Source: Rhodothermus sp. (GTDB lineage: Bacteria; Bacteroidota; Rhodothermia; Rhodothermales; Rhodothermaceae). Taken from it: a DNA stretch of 39,318 bases. Location of the stretch: the NCBI GenBank assembly GCA_026989375.1, contig JALSJJ010000237.1, positions 1 to 39,318 on the forward strand. Reading direction: 5' to 3'. The translations under genes and the position numbers were made by a program. Within the stretch, counting starts at the first letter, position 1, and each line of letters starts with the position of its first letter. Below, piece after piece: positions 2,266 through 8,497 of the stretch. Under the pieces are notes generated by a model. The model did not search any database, was not told the origin of the DNA, and was given only the letters and a program-made list of their open reading frames with translations.

Positions 2266-2314
2266 GCGACCCGCCTGATTGCTACGTGGTCGCCCAACCG
2301 ATGGAGCGGTAACC

Positions 2315-3031
2315 ATGAAAGTCAAGGTCAAAATCAAGCGCTTCAATCCGGAGACCGACGCCGAGCCGCACTGGGAGACCTATGAGGTCGATGCGGATCC
2401 CATGGACAGCGCGCTGTCATTGCTTTTGCATATCAAATGGCATATTGACGGCTCGCTGACCTTCCGCAAAAGCTGCGGTCATGGCATTTGCGGCTCGGAT
2501 GCCATGAAGATCAACGGCGAAAACCGGCTGGCCTGCTCGGTGCTGGTCAAAGATCTGGTCAAAGGAGAGGGCGATACGATCACGTTCGAGCCGTTACCCA
2601 CCGCTCCGGTAATTAAAGATCTGGTCATTGACCAGAGCCGCTTCTTCGAAAAATATCGGGCCGTTAAGCCCTGGCTGATTACACGCACGCCGCCGCCTGA
2701 GCGGGAGCGGCTGCAGAGCCCCGAGGAGTTTGCGCTGATTGAAGACGCCACTAAATGCATCATGTGCGGGGCCTGTACGCATGCCTGCCCCAGCACCTGG
2801 GCGGATCCGGAGTATCTGGGGCCAGCCGCTCTGCTCAAGGCCTATCGGTACACCTTTGACTCGCGCGACGAAGGGGCTGACGAGAGATTACCGGTGGTCG
2901 ACTCGCGCGAGGGGCTCTGGAAGTGCTATACGATCTTCAATTGCAATGAGGCCTGCCCCAAAGAGATTGACATTTCCCGCTGGCTGTCGGCGCTGAAGCG
3001 GCGCGCTGTGATGGAGGTGGCTGCCCGATGA
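2315..3031 (+). CDS. sdhB: Succinate dehydrogenase iron-sulfur subunit
   Basis: Electron-transfer subunit of complex II, carrying electrons from FAD to the quinone site. The three expected clusters are visible in order: a plant-type [2Fe-2S] site (SCGHGICGSD, then a later AC), a [4Fe-4S] site (CIMCGACTHACP), and a [3Fe-4S] site (CYTIFNCNEACPKEI). Asp in the fourth [2Fe-2S] position is also found in E. coli SdhB and is not a defect. The ATG at 2315 is chosen because a GGAG lies 8 bases upstream and the protein then starts with the usual KVKVKIKRF strand; the frame is open further upstream to 2279. The gene ends at 3031, and the opposite-strand neighbour ends at 3032 with no gap. Confidence 0.96.
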   Translation: MKVKVKIKRFNPETDAEPHWETYEVDADPMDSALSLLLHIKWHIDGSLTFRKSCGHGICGSDAMKINGENRLACSVLVKDLVKGEGDTITFEPLPTAPVIKDLVIDQSRFFEKYRAVKPWLITRTPPPERERLQSPEEFALIEDATKCIMCGACTHACPSTWADPEYLGPAALLKAYRYTFDSRDEGADERLPVVDSREGLWKCYTIFNCNEACPKEIDISRWLSALKRRAVMEVAAR

Positions 3032-3475
3032 TTACGACGGTAGAAAGCGGTGGCGCAGGTAGTCGCCGGATGGGATAAGGCGTGCTCGCGACAGATCGCC
3101 GTGGTACAGGTAGATCCAGGCCAATACTGAATGGCCATCCGGCAGGAACACGGTATCCTGGACGCGCCGGTATTCGCCAGCTTCTGGCTGCTCTGGATCG
3201 TATCCTTCGTATGCATCCAGATAGGTGAAGATGTGGGCGGCCTGGGCTCGATGCAAGGCATATAGTTCGCCGTGTACGATGCGGTCGGGATCAGGGACGA
3301 CGCCGGGGTAGGCACCGAGATCGTACAAACGACCCCGGTAATAGGCACGCCCCAGCGAGCGAATTGCGTCGTGCAGGGTGGGCGGAAGAAAGCGGGGCAA
3401 TTGGCCGCGCAGGGTGCCGTAAACAAACAACAAGGTAACCGACATCCAGACAGGGGGATGCCAGCGGTGTTTCAT
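3032..3475 (-). CDS. Gamma-glutamylcyclotransferase-like (GGCT/AIG2) protein
   Basis: The 147-residue product has the signature of the GGCT-like fold: FVYGTLRG near the start, YPGV in the middle, and LDAYEGY carrying the presumed catalytic glutamate. Family members cyclise gamma-glutamyl or gamma-glutamylamine substrates to 5-oxoproline; the substrate here cannot be told. The ATG at 3475 overlaps the stop codon of the upstream GvpF/L-family gene (ATGA), which suggests translational coupling and supports this start; a second ATG at 3445, directly before the conserved strand, is an alternative. It is the last gene of a three-gene minus-strand unit and abuts the end of sdhB tail to tail. Confidence 0.8.
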   Translation of the reverse strand: MKHRWHPPVWMSVTLLFVYGTLRGQLPRFLPPTLHDAIRSLGRAYYRGRLYDLGAYPGVVPDPDRIVHGELYALHRAQAAHIFTYLDAYEGYDPEQPEAGEYRRVQDTVFLPDGHSVLAWIYLYHGDLSRARLIPSGDYLRHRFLPS

Positions 3476-4389
3476 ACCGAAGCAGCGGCCGATGCTTCCA
3501 GATGCAGCCGGGCAAAGTTAAACGGCGGTGAAGGGCCGTTCAACTGTAGTCGGATGCCCAGCGTTCGGTAGGCCCGCTCCAGAGAGGCCACCCGGTCGCG
3601 AAAAGCACTTGTGCGTTCGGTAGCAACCAGATAGGCTGCGCGCAGTACGGGGTGATGTCGGACTTCCAGGCGTTGCACTTTGGCCCGGTCAGCTAAGGCG
3701 GAGAGCGTCTGGTGACAGTGCTCGGCCGCTATTTGCAGGAGCCGATCCACCTCGACCATGAGTGAAGGGTCGTCGGCTGCTGTGCCCTGGACCAGCGCAA
3801 CCGCCTCTTTCAGACGCGCACGATCCACATCGAGCTGAAATAGCCATTCCTGCCGGCCGTCCAGCAACGCCAGCGTAGCACAGAAATCTTCGTAGTTAGC
3901 CTCCAGCAGCGCTCGGACGTGCGCCTGTTCCGGACAGATCGTGCCAAATCGTAAGGGAAGCAGCGGGCCTTCGAGCTGCAAAGAGGCCAGAAACTGATGA
4001 TGTGCCCGAAGCTGAGCACGTAGCCACTCCGTGTCGTGAAGGCGCTGCCGGATGGCTTCCAGACTATAATCGCGGGCCGGGACGCGCCGTACGATGGCTT
4101 GCACATTGCGGAAGGGAATGCATGCCAATGGCTCCGGTCCACTGACCGATTGGCCAGCCCATGTAATACCATAGACGTAGTGAACCTGCGGTTCTGGAGC
4201 CGTGATAGGATGTAATTGGCGGCTCACCTGCTCGAGGATGGCCTGCAACCACCACTGCTTGAGTACGGCACGCGCCAGCGCCAGCGCTTCCTGACGGGAA
4301 GCCTCGGTCAACTGGTATACTTCCTTTTCAGAAAAATACCAGCGGGCTGCAGGTCTGTCGCGCTCAAGCGCCGGCATGATCCGCTTCAT
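3472..4389 (-). CDS. GvpF/GvpL-family protein with an extra N-terminal helix
   Basis: The core matches the gas-vesicle GvpL/GvpF family. It has a first strand YVYGI, then IPFRNVQAIVRRV, the central GPLLPLRFGTI motif, an EWLFQLDVD strand, and the C-terminal AYLV...FRDRV...GP-PPFNF motif. In gas-vesicle producers these proteins are accessory or minor components that bind GvpA. No gvpA or other gvp gene is visible in this window, so a gas-vesicle role is not shown. About 70 residues precede the core and contain a helix (EALALARAVLK..LQAILEQ) closely matching one in the product of the gene immediately upstream. A GTG at 4431 would add 14 residues; I chose the ATG at 4389 because it gives an N-terminus of the same length as the upstream protein. 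It overlaps the upstream gene by 26 bp and the downstream gene by 4 bp. Confidence 0.78.
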   Translation of the reverse strand: MKRIMPALERDRPAARWYFSEKEVYQLTEASRQEALALARAVLKQWWLQAILEQVSRQLHPITAPEPQVHYVYGITWAGQSVSGPEPLACIPFRNVQAIVRRVPARDYSLEAIRQRLHDTEWLRAQLRAHHQFLASLQLEGPLLPLRFGTICPEQAHVRALLEANYEDFCATLALLDGRQEWLFQLDVDRARLKEAVALVQGTAADDPSLMVEVDRLLQIAAEHCHQTLSALADRAKVQRLEVRHHPVLRAAYLVATERTSAFRDRVASLERAYRTLGIRLQLNGPSPPFNFARLHLEASAAASV

Positions 4390-4870
4390 CTTCGGCCGAG
4401 CTGCCCCGCGTGAGCCATTCCTCGTTGGCACTTAGCTGCTGACGAAGGTTCTCGATCTCGCGTAAAATCTGGCGCGCGCCCTCCATCTCTGATCCGTTCT
4501 GCTCCGTTTCGACAGCAGTTGGTGCCGGCGTAGCCTGTGCTGTTTTTTCCGAAGGCGATGTCGGAGGCGTTTCTGGACGGCTGACCAGCGTCACCCGAGG
4601 CGTCTCAAAAGGGGGACGCTTGGGGGCTTCTGCGGGTTGAGCAGCCGTCGGCTGCGCTGCAGTAGCTGGTGGGGACATTGCCTTATGAGCCTGCAGGCGG
4701 GCCGACTGCTCCAGAATGGCCTGGAGCATTTGCTCCTTGATGATTGCGCGGGCTTCCGCCAGCGCCTCCGCTCTGGTTTCTTCAACGAGGCGTTGAATAT
4801 CTTCGTTGGAAAGCTCCAGAAATTTCGCGCGAAACTGTTCAATCAGTTTGCGGAGTTGCTCGTCGTACAT
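4364..4870 (-). CDS. Unrecognised helix/linker/coiled-coil protein, first gene of the GvpF/L unit
   Basis: This 168-residue protein has three visible parts. Residues 1-60 are a charged amphipathic helical region ending in the LQAILEQ motif. Residues 61-125 are a low-complexity linker rich in Ala, Pro and Thr. Residues 126-155 form a short predicted coiled coil (ILREIENLRQQL). There is no signal peptide or membrane segment, so it is probably cytoplasmic. In a by-eye alignment, 18 of 34 residues around residues 22-56 are identical to the N-terminal extension of the GvpF/L-family protein encoded next. This suggests a shared interaction module. The start ATG at 4870 has GGAGA 8 bases upstream. 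I do not recognise a named family. Confidence 0.7.
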   Translation of the reverse strand: MYDEQLRKLIEQFRAKFLELSNEDIQRLVEETRAEALAEARAIIKEQMLQAILEQSARLQAHKAMSPPATAAQPTAAQPAEAPKRPPFETPRVTLVSRPETPPTSPSEKTAQATPAPTAVETEQNGSEMEGARQILREIENLRQQLSANEEWLTRGSSAEDEADHAGA

Positions 4871-4975
4871 AGCATTTTCTCCGGATGGATGGGTGGCATG
4901 GTGCTGAAAGTCTGTGCTACAAGCCGTGTGCCTGCTAAACGAACGATGCCTTACGGTGTGAGTTTCGTCTAAACG

Positions 4976-4992
4976 GCGGAAAACCTTTCCGC
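4976..4992 (-). terminator. Weak hairpin after the lytic transglycosylase gene
   Basis: A perfect 7-bp inverted repeat (GCGGAAA/TTTCCGC) with a 3-base loop lies 25 bp past the stop of the minus-strand lytic transglycosylase gene. There is only a short T run after it on that strand, so it is at best a weak intrinsic terminator. It could instead be part of the regulatory region of the unit that starts at 4870. Confidence 0.25.
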
Positions 4993-5017
4993 GCGTTCAG
5001 GCAAAAAAACTGTTGTT

Positions 5018-7195
5018 TCAGGAAAAGATTTTCAGGCGTTGTCCGGGGTAGATGCGGTTGGAGCGCAGGCCGTTCCAGCGTTTGAGATCTCGTACGGATA
5101 CGCCGAAGCGCTGGGCAATTTCGCTGAGCGTGTCGCCGGGCTGTACATGGTAGATGGTATAGCCCCGTGAAACATCGGCTTCCGGGTAGATGCTCAGGCG
5201 TTGTCCGGGGTAGATGCGGTTGGAGCGCAGGCCGTTCCAGCGTTTGAGATCTCGTACGGATACGCCGAAGCGCTGGGCAATTTCGCTGAGCGTGTCGCCG
5301 CGACGTACGCGATACACCACCCGTTCTGGCATGACCGGCTCCGACAGATACAGCACCAGCTCCTGTCCGACGCGAATGGTATGACCAGAGAGGTTATTCC
5401 AGCGTTTGAGATCGGCCACCGAAATGCCATACCTCCGGGCGATCTTGCTGAGCGCATCACCCGGGCGTACGGTGTAGACGACGCGTGTGGGGGCTCTGGC
5501 ATCCGTAGGAGAGGATCTGTCGGACGAGGCAGTAGCCGGTTCAGGGGCTGCTGTTTCCAGGGCAGTGGGTTGAGCCGCAGGGGGAGCCGGTGATTTTACG
5601 GCAGGCGAAACAACACGAAGCGGACGTATGGAGCGACTGCCATACTGCACGCGCACAGGCGCTGCTTCGGCCAGTTGCAGGGCCTGGCTGCTTTTGTAAC
5701 GGGGTACCGGCACGATCAGCCGCTGCCCCGGTCGAATCAGGGTGCTCCGTAAGCCATTGGCGCGCATGAGCGCCGAGACGCTTACCCCAAAGCGTCGGGC
5801 AATGATGCTGAGCGCATCCCCACGGCGTACCCTGTAGGTAGTAACGGGACGCTTCCGATCTTCGGGAAGCTGCGCATAAGCTGCGGCAAAGCGGGCGTAA
5901 CTCCCCAGAGGTAGCCGAATAAAGTAGGGCCCCCGTGTGGGCGGCAGGATGTTGCGACGCAACTCGGGGTTCAGGGCGCGTAGCGTTGCCACATCGGTCC
6001 CTGCCATGCGTGCAATCTCTTCCAGGGAAAGCATGCCCTGTACGGGCACATAGTCATATTCATAGCGGGGGCCAGGCTGGACGCTCAGGTTCAGAGCAGA
6101 CGGATTGGAGGCCACCAGGGCCGTCGCTATGAACATGGGGACGTAGTTTCGCGTCTCGCGTGGCAGATACGGATAGATGTCCCAGAAAGTGGGCCGCTCG
6201 ATGCCGTGACGGACAGCCGCCCGCTTGAGTGCGCGCCGAACCCGCCCGGCGCCGGCGTTATAGGCGGCAAGCGCTAAATGCCAGTCCTTAAACAAGGCGT
6301 ACAGATCTTTCAGGTGGCGCGCGGCAGCACGGGTAGATTTTTCCGGATCCCGGCGTTCGTCCACCCAGGGCGTGATGCTCAGCCCATAAAGACGGGCCGT
6401 TCCGGCCATGAATTGCCACATGCCCACGGCCCCAGCTCGGCTTCGGGCGTAGGGATTGAGGCCGCTTTCTATCATGGCCAGGTATTTGAGCTCGTCTGGA
6501 ACGCCTTCTTCTTTAAAGATGTGCTCGATCATGGGAAAGTAGGTCTCCGCCCGGCTCAGCCAGCGCAACAGATGTTGTTCCGGTTCGCGCAACAGATAAT
6601 CTATGCTCATTTTGACAAGCCGGTTCATGGTGAGCGGCACGGTGCTGTGAGGAGCAGGCAGATTGGGGGGGGCCACGTCCTCCAGCAGTGGCTCGCCTAC
6701 GGCGTCCATGGCTGCAAACATCGCTTCGCGAAAGGCAAAGATGTCGCCATAGCTCAGGGTCAGCGTATCTGGCGGTATGCCATAGAGCTGTTCGTACTCA
6801 GTAATGAGAGAGCGGTATAGTTCGCGAAAGCGCACATTAGAAGCAATGTGGGGCTGGCGACTCAGCATGGCCAGGGCCTCAAGCGCTTCGTCAAGCAAGC
6901 GGGCGGCGATTTCCAGCTCGCCCGCCGCCTCTGCTTTGAGGATGCGTGCCTGATGGTTGTACAGATGCGCCAGGTATTCAAGCAAGGTGGGCTCGTCCAG
7001 ACTATCGGCGGGCGGTAACAAGCCAACCAGGCTGGTGCCAAGCAGGCGCAACCGCCGATCGAATGGGATTTCTTCGGAAGGAAAGGCCTGCAGACGCTCC
7101 AGCGGAGCCGCCGTTCTGGTTGAGATCGTATCTTGCGCCTGCGTGGTGCCTACCAGGCTTCCAATAAGCCACAGCAACAGTAATCCCCGTACCAC
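5018..7195 (-). CDS. Secreted lytic transglycosylase with four LysM domains (MltD-like)
   Basis: Predicted cell-wall enzyme cleaving peptidoglycan glycan strands to 1,6-anhydro products. The 725 residues start with a signal peptide (hydrophobic core, cleavage likely after TTQA, residue 20). After an alpha-helical region of about 200 residues comes an SLT domain, with the catalytic glutamate in IESGLNPYA (about E243), GAVGMWQFM, and AYNAGAGRV. Four peptidoglycan-binding LysM domains follow at about residues 453-496, 573-616, 627-670 and 680-724; an Ala/Pro/Ser-rich linker separates the first from the other three. E. coli MltD has the same order with fewer LysM domains and is a lipoprotein; no lipobox cysteine is seen here. 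The start is a GTG. It is probably the last gene of the leftward operon starting at 13000. Confidence 0.93.
5032..5138. repeat. 107-bp direct repeat, copy 1 (LysM domain 4)
   Basis: This stretch is identical, base for base, to 5194-5300, offset by 162 bp. It encodes most of the fourth LysM domain of the lytic transglycosylase. The repeat ends exactly where the two domains diverge, beside the glycine-rich start of each domain. Confidence 0.95.
5194..5300. repeat. 107-bp direct repeat, copy 2 (LysM domain 3)
   Basis: Identical to 5032-5138 and encoding most of LysM domain 3. The first two LysM domains of the same protein are clearly diverged, so this pair reflects a recent duplication or gene conversion. 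Confidence 0.95.
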
Positions 7196-7258: not shown

Positions 7259-8431
7259 TTATTGCAAGGGGGATGCCCGATTTTTTCGGTATCGACGCTC
7301 GACGGCGTCGGTAAAGGCGACGGCGGGTTCGCTGTAGATATTTACGTGGTAGCGACGGAATACTTCTTCTGCGATGAGCTGAGAGGCTTCGGCCCAGGTG
7401 GGCATGTCGCGTAATCGGCGCAGTACGCGTTCGTAGGCAACCCGGTCTCCGCGGAACAGATGCGTAATGAACAGTTCGCGATGGCGCAGGCCGGTTTCAC
7501 CGAGCACTTCGCGTTCCAGGTCGGTTGTGGGAAGCTCCGGGGTTTGTTCAGCCAACGGTTTTTGGTAAAACTGCATCCAGCGAGGCAGGGTGTCGGCGTC
7601 AGCGGTAGTTGTCTGTATGTTTTCGGGAGTTGCCTGCTGAAGCTGAAAGCGACGCCAGAGGGGTAACGTTGCTTCTTCTGTGGGTTCGGTGGTTATGGCC
7701 GGCTTATCGGCGATAAGCGCATGCAGCGCCTCGGCCGTCAGCAGAGCCGTGCCTTCGGCTTGAAGTCGCTGCACCAGGTGCGTCTGCTGTTTTTCTGAAA
7801 AGAAAGCGATCAGCAGGGAGGCAGGAATCGCTGTTGGCCGTTCCGGTAGGAGGGCGGCCAGTTCATAGAGCGGGCGAAGCAGTCGCAGCCAGGCGTCAGC
7901 ATCAAAATCGGCCGTCAGCTTCCGGTCAATGCGTTGCAGTAGTGCTGTGAAGCGTTCTCGTTGTAGTTGGGCGATCTTTTTTTCTTCGAGGTAAAGGGCA
8001 ACGGCTTCTCGGAAGTAAGCATAGGGGAGAAACCAGTGCATACGCTGGAGTACCTTTTCGGCCGGCAGCACCTCATCTTCCGAGAAGATGTGGGTGGTGA
8101 GGGTGTGGATTGGTCGGACCAGATACTGCGCCAGGGCCTGAACACTCTGGCTGAGCAGTTCTGGCCATACCTGGGGCGGAATGCGTAGATGCGAACGCAA
8201 TCGGGTGCACAGCGCTTGATAGGCTTCCTGGACTTCTGGTGCTTCGACTTCGAACCAGGTGTCATCAAGGAAGGGAAGCCGGGCATCTGCCTGCGCGATC
8301 GCCAGGTGCTGCAGGTAATGTATGAGCGCATCGGGCATTCCCAGCCGGCGTAGCTCACGAAGGGGGTAGGCCCGGGTAGGAGGGAAAGCCGCCTGTAATT
8401 GCCGGGTCAGAAGACGAATGAATTCGGTCAT
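7259..8431 (-). CDS. Unrecognised protein between nadC and the lytic transglycosylase
   Basis: About 390 residues with no signal peptide and no clear membrane segment, so probably cytoplasmic. It is mostly helical and rich in Leu, Gln, Arg and Ala. The first 240 residues look like a continuous helical bundle, followed by a Thr/Glu/Pro-rich stretch (about residues 250-310) and a second helical part that ends in a basic tail (VERRYRKNR). I recognise no catalytic motif or family. I chose the ATG at 8431, starting MTEFIRLLTRQL. A TTG at 8491 would add 20 residues that do not look like protein-coding sequence. It lies downstream of nadC and 63 bp before the lytic transglycosylase start, in the same orientation. 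Confidence 0.75.
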   Translation of the reverse strand: MTEFIRLLTRQLQAAFPPTRAYPLRELRRLGMPDALIHYLQHLAIAQADARLPFLDDTWFEVEAPEVQEAYQALCTRLRSHLRIPPQVWPELLSQSVQALAQYLVRPIHTLTTHIFSEDEVLPAEKVLQRMHWFLPYAYFREAVALYLEEKKIAQLQRERFTALLQRIDRKLTADFDADAWLRLLRPLYELAALLPERPTAIPASLLIAFFSEKQQTHLVQRLQAEGTALLTAEALHALIADKPAITTEPTEEATLPLWRRFQLQQATPENIQTTTADADTLPRWMQFYQKPLAEQTPELPTTDLEREVLGETGLRHRELFITHLFRGDRVAYERVLRRLRDMPTWAEASQLIAEEVFRRYHVNIYSEPAVAFTDAVERRYRKNRASPLQ

Positions 8432-8497
8432 AAGACATATGGGCCCGGTTCGTGAACGGATCTGGGCCTTATAACGCCAGCTTTTCGGCAAAGTCTC

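Follow-up and report, generated by a model that had tools for sequence, protein, structure and literature searches.

Proteins of the GvpF/GvpL (GvpF/L) family are treated as gas-vesicle proteins, and genomes are annotated accordingly. GvpF is the primary GvpA binder and its probable chaperone, while GvpL provides a platform for accessory proteins (PMC11445434, PMC9501494). Among these, GvpC is a strong GvpL partner that lies on the gas-vesicle surface and is made of helical repeats of 32-40 residues (PMC9501494). The locus described here, in a stretch of 39,318 nt from Rhodothermus sp. (hereafter the window), encodes a protein with the same GvpF fold, which exceeds the cut-off of the family model PF06386 by about 100 bits. 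It differs from gas-vesicle GvpF and GvpL in carrying an extra N-terminal helix module, in falling on a separate branch of the family tree and in belonging to a genome that lacks gvpA and gvpK. Among the papers searched, none linked the Rhodothermales with GvpL and none cited PF06386; the two that mentioned both Rhodothermus and gas vesicles were, judging by title, an extremophile review and a virus-host study. The locus offers a system for asking what the GvpF/L fold does where gas vesicles are absent.

A GvpF/L gene without gas-vesicle genes

Three open reading frames overlap end to end on the minus strand of the window. They encode a helix-module protein of 168 aa (4364..4870), with an orthologue in all seven genomes of the genus, an orphan GvpF/L protein of 319 aa (3472..4431) and a GGACT/AIG2-like gamma-glutamylcyclotransferase-like protein of 147 aa (3032..3475), and the unit is convergent with sdhA-sdhB. 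The GvpF/L and GGACT genes share 4 nt. The overlap of the helix-protein and GvpF/L genes amounts to 68 nt with a GvpF/L start at GTG 4431, but shrinks to 26 or 14 nt with a start at ATG 4389 or ATG 4377; all three starts are candidates, since both homology and model confidence begin near residue 30. An MltD/LysM lytic transglycosylase gene (5018-7195, minus strand) lies upstream of the helix-protein gene. Upstream of it in turn, a gene kept in the genus (7259-8491, minus strand) encodes a protein of 410 aa that fits no Pfam family convincingly.

The assignment of the 319-aa protein to the GvpF/L family is solid, as it combines Pfam, a structure-profile match and the predicted fold. Residues 84-307 (3511..4182, minus strand) score 127.2 bits with PF06386, whose cut-off is 23.6 (E=1.5e-36), and profile matches were obtained to the solved GvpF structures 6l5d (4e-15) and 4qsg (3.5e-14). 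The AF2 model of the protein (pLDDT 82.3) presents one long helix, spanning residues 35-72, ahead of a GvpF fold, and the best Foldseek hits of this model are again 6l5d and 4qsg (E 4.9e-11 to 1.2e-10). These data bear out the family identification proposed by the initial annotation. Scores against the NCBIfam equivalogs fell far under their cut-offs, with 27.6 of 350 bits for GvpF and 23.5 of 200 bits for GvpL.

The same annotation had called the gene an orphan, and a genome-wide search for a gvp cluster, through PF00741, GvpK and GvpG, found none, in agreement with that description. Each of the seven genomes of the genus contains one GvpF/L gene and none contains gvpA: neither PF00741 (GvpA/J/M family) nor PF05121 (GvpK) matched in the window's own genome or in the six others, while both models matched in five genomes of family f12, the positive controls, under the same searches. 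The window's genome is a 96%-complete metagenome-assembled genome, a type of assembly in which the absence of gvp genes depends on completeness, and the same absence was found in a genus member assembled as a single contig of 3.43 Mb (G003). Searches for GvpG in the genus and its neighbours yielded only partial hits below the cut-off (21.5-23.5 bits versus 30.6), limited to about profile positions 37-65, which form a common C-terminal motif; partial hits of this type occur in unrelated control genomes too. With no gvpA-type gene and no GvpK, and given its tree position and equivalog scores, a functional gas-vesicle GvpF or GvpL was rejected as an interpretation of the protein. An anti-phage defence role was likewise discarded, as PADLOC models gave no match at E<=0.1.

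The GGACT-like protein contains the same full domain as other GGACT/AIG2-like gamma-glutamylcyclotransferases (PF06094, 80.6 bits, cut-off 22.8; E=1.8e-22), with visible YGTL and GE motifs, but it stands outside the conserved pair. Its gene is missing in one Rhodothermus genome (G001, locus L048) and in families f8 and f10. It is a dispensable, genus-specific hitchhiker, and the three-gene unit as such is therefore not conserved. The trio put forward by the initial annotation thus stands as three overlapping minus-strand reading frames at these positions, but the unit that is conserved is the pair of helix-protein and GvpF/L genes.

Alignments of the seven genus members revealed that the blocks GAAAC, TCGTTC, GGCA and CTTG are kept in all of them within the 147 nt located 5' of the helix gene (4871..5017, minus strand). 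Because these blocks are conserved in all seven species, this intergenic stretch is probably the helix gene's own promoter or regulatory region. A palindrome-like sequence in the same stretch, GGAAAGCTTTTCC, is kept in all or most genus members. The spaced pattern GAAAC-N16-CGTT is also present 5' of the helix gene in 7/7 species. An ECF-type promoter was considered, but a slightly stricter pattern, GAAAC-N15-TCGTT, occurs 6 times genome-wide against 6 for the control and so gives no support for a regulon. A sigma-54-like pattern, GGCAC-N5-TTG(T/C) with one mismatch, occurs 57 times genome-wide versus 32 for its control, a modest excess; 5' of the other genes it has one match in f10 and none at the fusion or f8 genes, and a sigma-54 assignment was therefore not adopted.

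A helix module in three locus layouts

The 168-aa protein matched no Pfam family at E<=0.01. It consists of an N-terminal helix module (SNEDIQRLVEETRAEALAEARAIIKEQMLQAILEQ; 4706..4810, minus strand), delimited by alignment and by an HMM of the small helix proteins, followed by a Pro-rich linker that holds the genus-conserved FETPRVTLVSRPETPP and by a C-terminal coiled-coil-like helix (ILREIENLRQQLSANEEWL; 4412..4480, minus strand). In alignments, this last helix is kept in the f8 counterparts of the protein, which span 138-142 aa. A second copy of the module makes up the N-terminal helix of the GvpF/L protein (residues 34-72; 4216..4332, minus strand; HMM E=2.2e-13), so that in Rhodothermus there is one module per protein. 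A helix common to the two proteins had been noticed by eye, with 18 of 34 residues identical. The gapless alignment of SNEDIQRLVEETRAEALAEARAIIKEQMLQAILEQ with SEKEVYQLTEASRQEALALARAVLKQWWLQAILEQ of the GvpF/L protein contains 19 identities in 35 positions, and its Smith-Waterman score of 103 lies some 12 standard deviations above that of shuffled sequences (32.4 +/- 5.8; best of 5000, 66), which corroborates the observation.

An HMM built solely from the small helix proteins matched the GvpF/L N-termini of every member of the genus (f1; E 1e-12 to 3e-15) and those of f8 and f10 (E 1e-4 to 1e-7), as well as the N-termini of fusion proteins, described below, from f4, f5 and f6 (E 2e-7 to 9e-5); the best of 920 local shuffles reached an E of 0.0035. 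Several f13 fusions remained at noise level and most f13 proteins matched weakly, so the homology of the f13 helix rests on a chain of intermediates. The small helix proteins had strong counterparts only in f1, f8 and f10, all of them in genomes with module-linked GvpF/L, and gas-vesicle GvpF/L copies showed no helix module with this HMM. In profile-profile comparisons, the module matched the N-terminal helix of the fusions at 89%, with a score of 30.2, whereas 30 column-shuffled controls did not exceed 14.8; its match to the 44-residue repeat of the fusions was 70%. Short Ala/Lys/Glu-rich amphipathic helices, this module included, can nonetheless resemble each other through convergence.

Across the order, PF06386 was detected in 44 of 114 genomes and gvpA in five, and all 44 GvpF/L genomes of the class fall within this one order. 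The fetched loci presented three layouts. In the genus (f1), a helix protein accompanies a GvpF/L protein bearing the helix, together with GGACT except in G001/L048. In the second layout, the GvpF/L protein of f8 carries the helix at its N-terminus and is accompanied by distinct small helix proteins (77, 93 and 138 aa), in a locus likewise placed between an MltD/LysM gene and sdhB, and f10 also combines a helix-bearing GvpF/L protein with small helix proteins adjoining sdhB. The unit is convergent with sdhB (2279-3031 in the window) in f1, f8 and f10, as read from the window and from L058, L060 and L059; by eye, the f8 SdhB sequence is clearly of a different type from those of f1 and f10.

The third layout, found in f4, f5, f6, f13 and genus g37 of f12, joins the parts in one chain of about 700-1900 aa, in which a helical region and an acidic linker precede a C-terminal GvpF/L domain. 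Such fusions were identified in f13 (L063-L067, L069-L073 and L085-L087) and in f4-f6 (L053-L057), among them that of L066 in f13, with 1917 aa. The f4, f5, f6 and f13 fusions carry the module helix at their N-terminus or close to it, and in most of them tandem 44-residue repeats follow. Neighbouring genes in most of these loci include an FtsX/MacB-type permease, detected with Pfam, and peroxiredoxin, MoaD/MoaE and PurC-type genes, recognised by sequence inspection.

The helical regions tested in f4, f6 and f13 follow a strict 44-residue period (44, 88, 132). The L053 fusion contains 11 to 12 consecutive units without any indel, the last of which is LRDAEAAARDAMNHVDDESAVLVEARRVLKERMLQSMLNEAIRE, and the two f5 fusions present one or two recognisable units only. 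The repeat length equals 4 x 11 residues, its amphipathic period is 3.7-3.8 and its composition is strongly acidic. In the fusion members scanned, no Pfam model covers the repeat, and PF01304 (GvpC) was absent among the hits to this region at E<=1. A structural model of a fusion was good for the GvpF/L domain, with a mean pLDDT of 51 overall and mostly 35-58 in the repeat region, where it depicts, at low confidence, helices of about 38 residues separated by loops of 5-6 residues. Genus g37 (L077 and L078) also encodes a second, degenerate GvpF/L copy of 469-470 aa with repeat-like helices, near genes for helicase-like and DnaG-like primase proteins.

Possible roles of the helix and of the GvpF/L domain

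The two upstream genes may represent the Rhodothermus form of a GvpF/L system that is independent of gas vesicles and occurs in many families of the order. The amphipathic helix would be the point of association: its copies in the small protein and in GvpF/L would pack together as one helical bundle or rod, and this structure would hold or multiply the GvpF/L domain. In related families, the same parts are combined in one chain, comprising an N-terminal helix, in most cases repeats, an acidic linker and the GvpF/L domain. A bundle or rod is favoured because the helix is divided between separate proteins in f1, f8 and f10 and joined to GvpF/L in a single chain elsewhere, a pattern typical of components with a joint function. 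The initial annotation had proposed that proteins sharing the helix bind each other or a common partner. This proposal is supported indirectly, since the helix and GvpF/L form one polypeptide in other families and since small helix proteins are found only in genomes with such a GvpF/L. Given that there is no GvpA in the genome, either the GvpF/L domain serves some other client or it has no client at all; we infer that it chaperones a different client or provides the platform for its assembly, both the activity and the client being conjectural. Taken as a whole, a gas-vesicle-independent GvpF/L system with the helix as association module and a different client is our best explanation, and one that we hold with moderate confidence.

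The main rival takes the helix for a docking or targeting tag, through which the small proteins and GvpF/L would both attach to some third partner, such as a scaffold, shell or membrane, and not to each other. A natural comparison is with the encapsulation peptides of bacterial microcompartments, which are short terminal amphipathic helices joined through a linker. The module is likewise short, amphipathic and near-terminal, including in the fusions, its linkers are Pro-rich or acidic, and a single locus can contain it in as many as four proteins, all features that would suit a tag. The locus has no known shell gene, no partner gene is constant across both kinds of neighbourhood, and tandem copies within one chain would suit a self-packing rod equally well, and we regard a docking function as rather unlikely.

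The repeats and the module could also coat a hydrophobic surface, for instance that of a granule of lipid or polyester, as the repeats of GvpC or of apolipoproteins do, with GvpF/L as a cap. A repeat of 4 x 11 residues with this amphipathic period would fit such a coat, and so would the precedent of GvpC, which in gas vesicles partners strongly with GvpL (PMC9501494), as the fused families similarly set tandem amphipathic helical repeats beside a GvpL-type protein. Unlike those of GvpC, the repeats here measure 44 residues and are confined to the fused families, with neither PF01304 nor any other convincing Pfam match; their strong acidity and the absence of granule genes at the locus further argue against a surface coat, which seems improbable.

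A gas-vesicle-like structure built on an unrelated shell protein would require that the small helix proteins take the place of GvpA, both as client and as subunit of the shell. The f8 locus, where two helical proteins of GvpA size (77-93 aa) and a larger one lie beside GvpF/L, is suggestive in this respect, and GvpF is known to bind the first helix of GvpA (PMC11445434). Yet the hhalign probability between the module and a two-sequence GvpA alignment was 0.1%, on which the small proteins were rejected as divergent GvpA. The lack of GvpK, GvpG hits that all remain under the cut-off, the lack of an evident beta-hairpin and the presence of the helix within the GvpF/L chain itself in the fusions also weigh against such a replacement, making it very improbable.

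Phylogeny and selection

In a maximum-likelihood phylogeny built from 64 GvpF/L domains, a branch with 97/88 support has the 29 gas-vesicle-type rows, among them those from the f12 clusters and from other families in the phylum, without exception on the same side. The other side gathered all the module-linked orphans and a very divergent group of orphans from other families of the phylum. The tree was midpoint-rooted and hence carries no order as to which GvpF/L class came first. In comparisons of the window with other species, where computable, omega was 0.07-0.12 for the helix protein, 0.13-0.18 for GvpF/L and 0.10-0.20 for GGACT, versus 0.011-0.016 for sdhB. The genes of the locus are under purifying selection, yet they evolve much faster than core metabolism.

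True gas-vesicle clusters exist in the order (f12), and a lone GvpF/L gene in an f12 genome without gvpA (G053; L062:5158-6006), nested among f12 gas-vesicle copies, is likely the relic of a lost cluster, but for Rhodothermus such an origin is more improbable still than a GvpA replacement: module-linked GvpF/L lies across the 97/88 branch from gas-vesicle GvpF/L and is therefore no relic, purifying selection maintains the Rhodothermus gene in 7/7 species, and its helix module is missing from gas-vesicle copies. The earlier suggestion that the GvpF/L fold was recruited to a role outside flotation is hence well supported, with seven of seven genomes lacking gvpA and gvpK, purifying selection and a separate clade.

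Many families of one order thus have no gas vesicles but retain GvpF/L proteins of a separate clade that is tied to a repeated helix. This raises the question of whether gas-vesicle assembly borrowed an older chaperone or platform domain. A broader reading, which we advance only tentatively, is that the Rhodothermales hold a distinct gas-vesicle-independent class of GvpF/L whose modules and 44-residue arrays form a supramolecular scaffold or assembly machine of a new type, with the very divergent copies from other families of the phylum belonging to the same class. If so, gas-vesicle GvpF/L would be one specialised branch of a broader family of assembly chaperones.

The very divergent lone GvpF/L proteins of these other families (L129, L130 and L131 in f30; L132 and L133 in f47 and f56) span 409-561 aa and present an N-terminal extension and a long linker. 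In two genera of f30, the gene adjoins an ECF sigma factor gene, confirmed by Pfam in L129 and L130.
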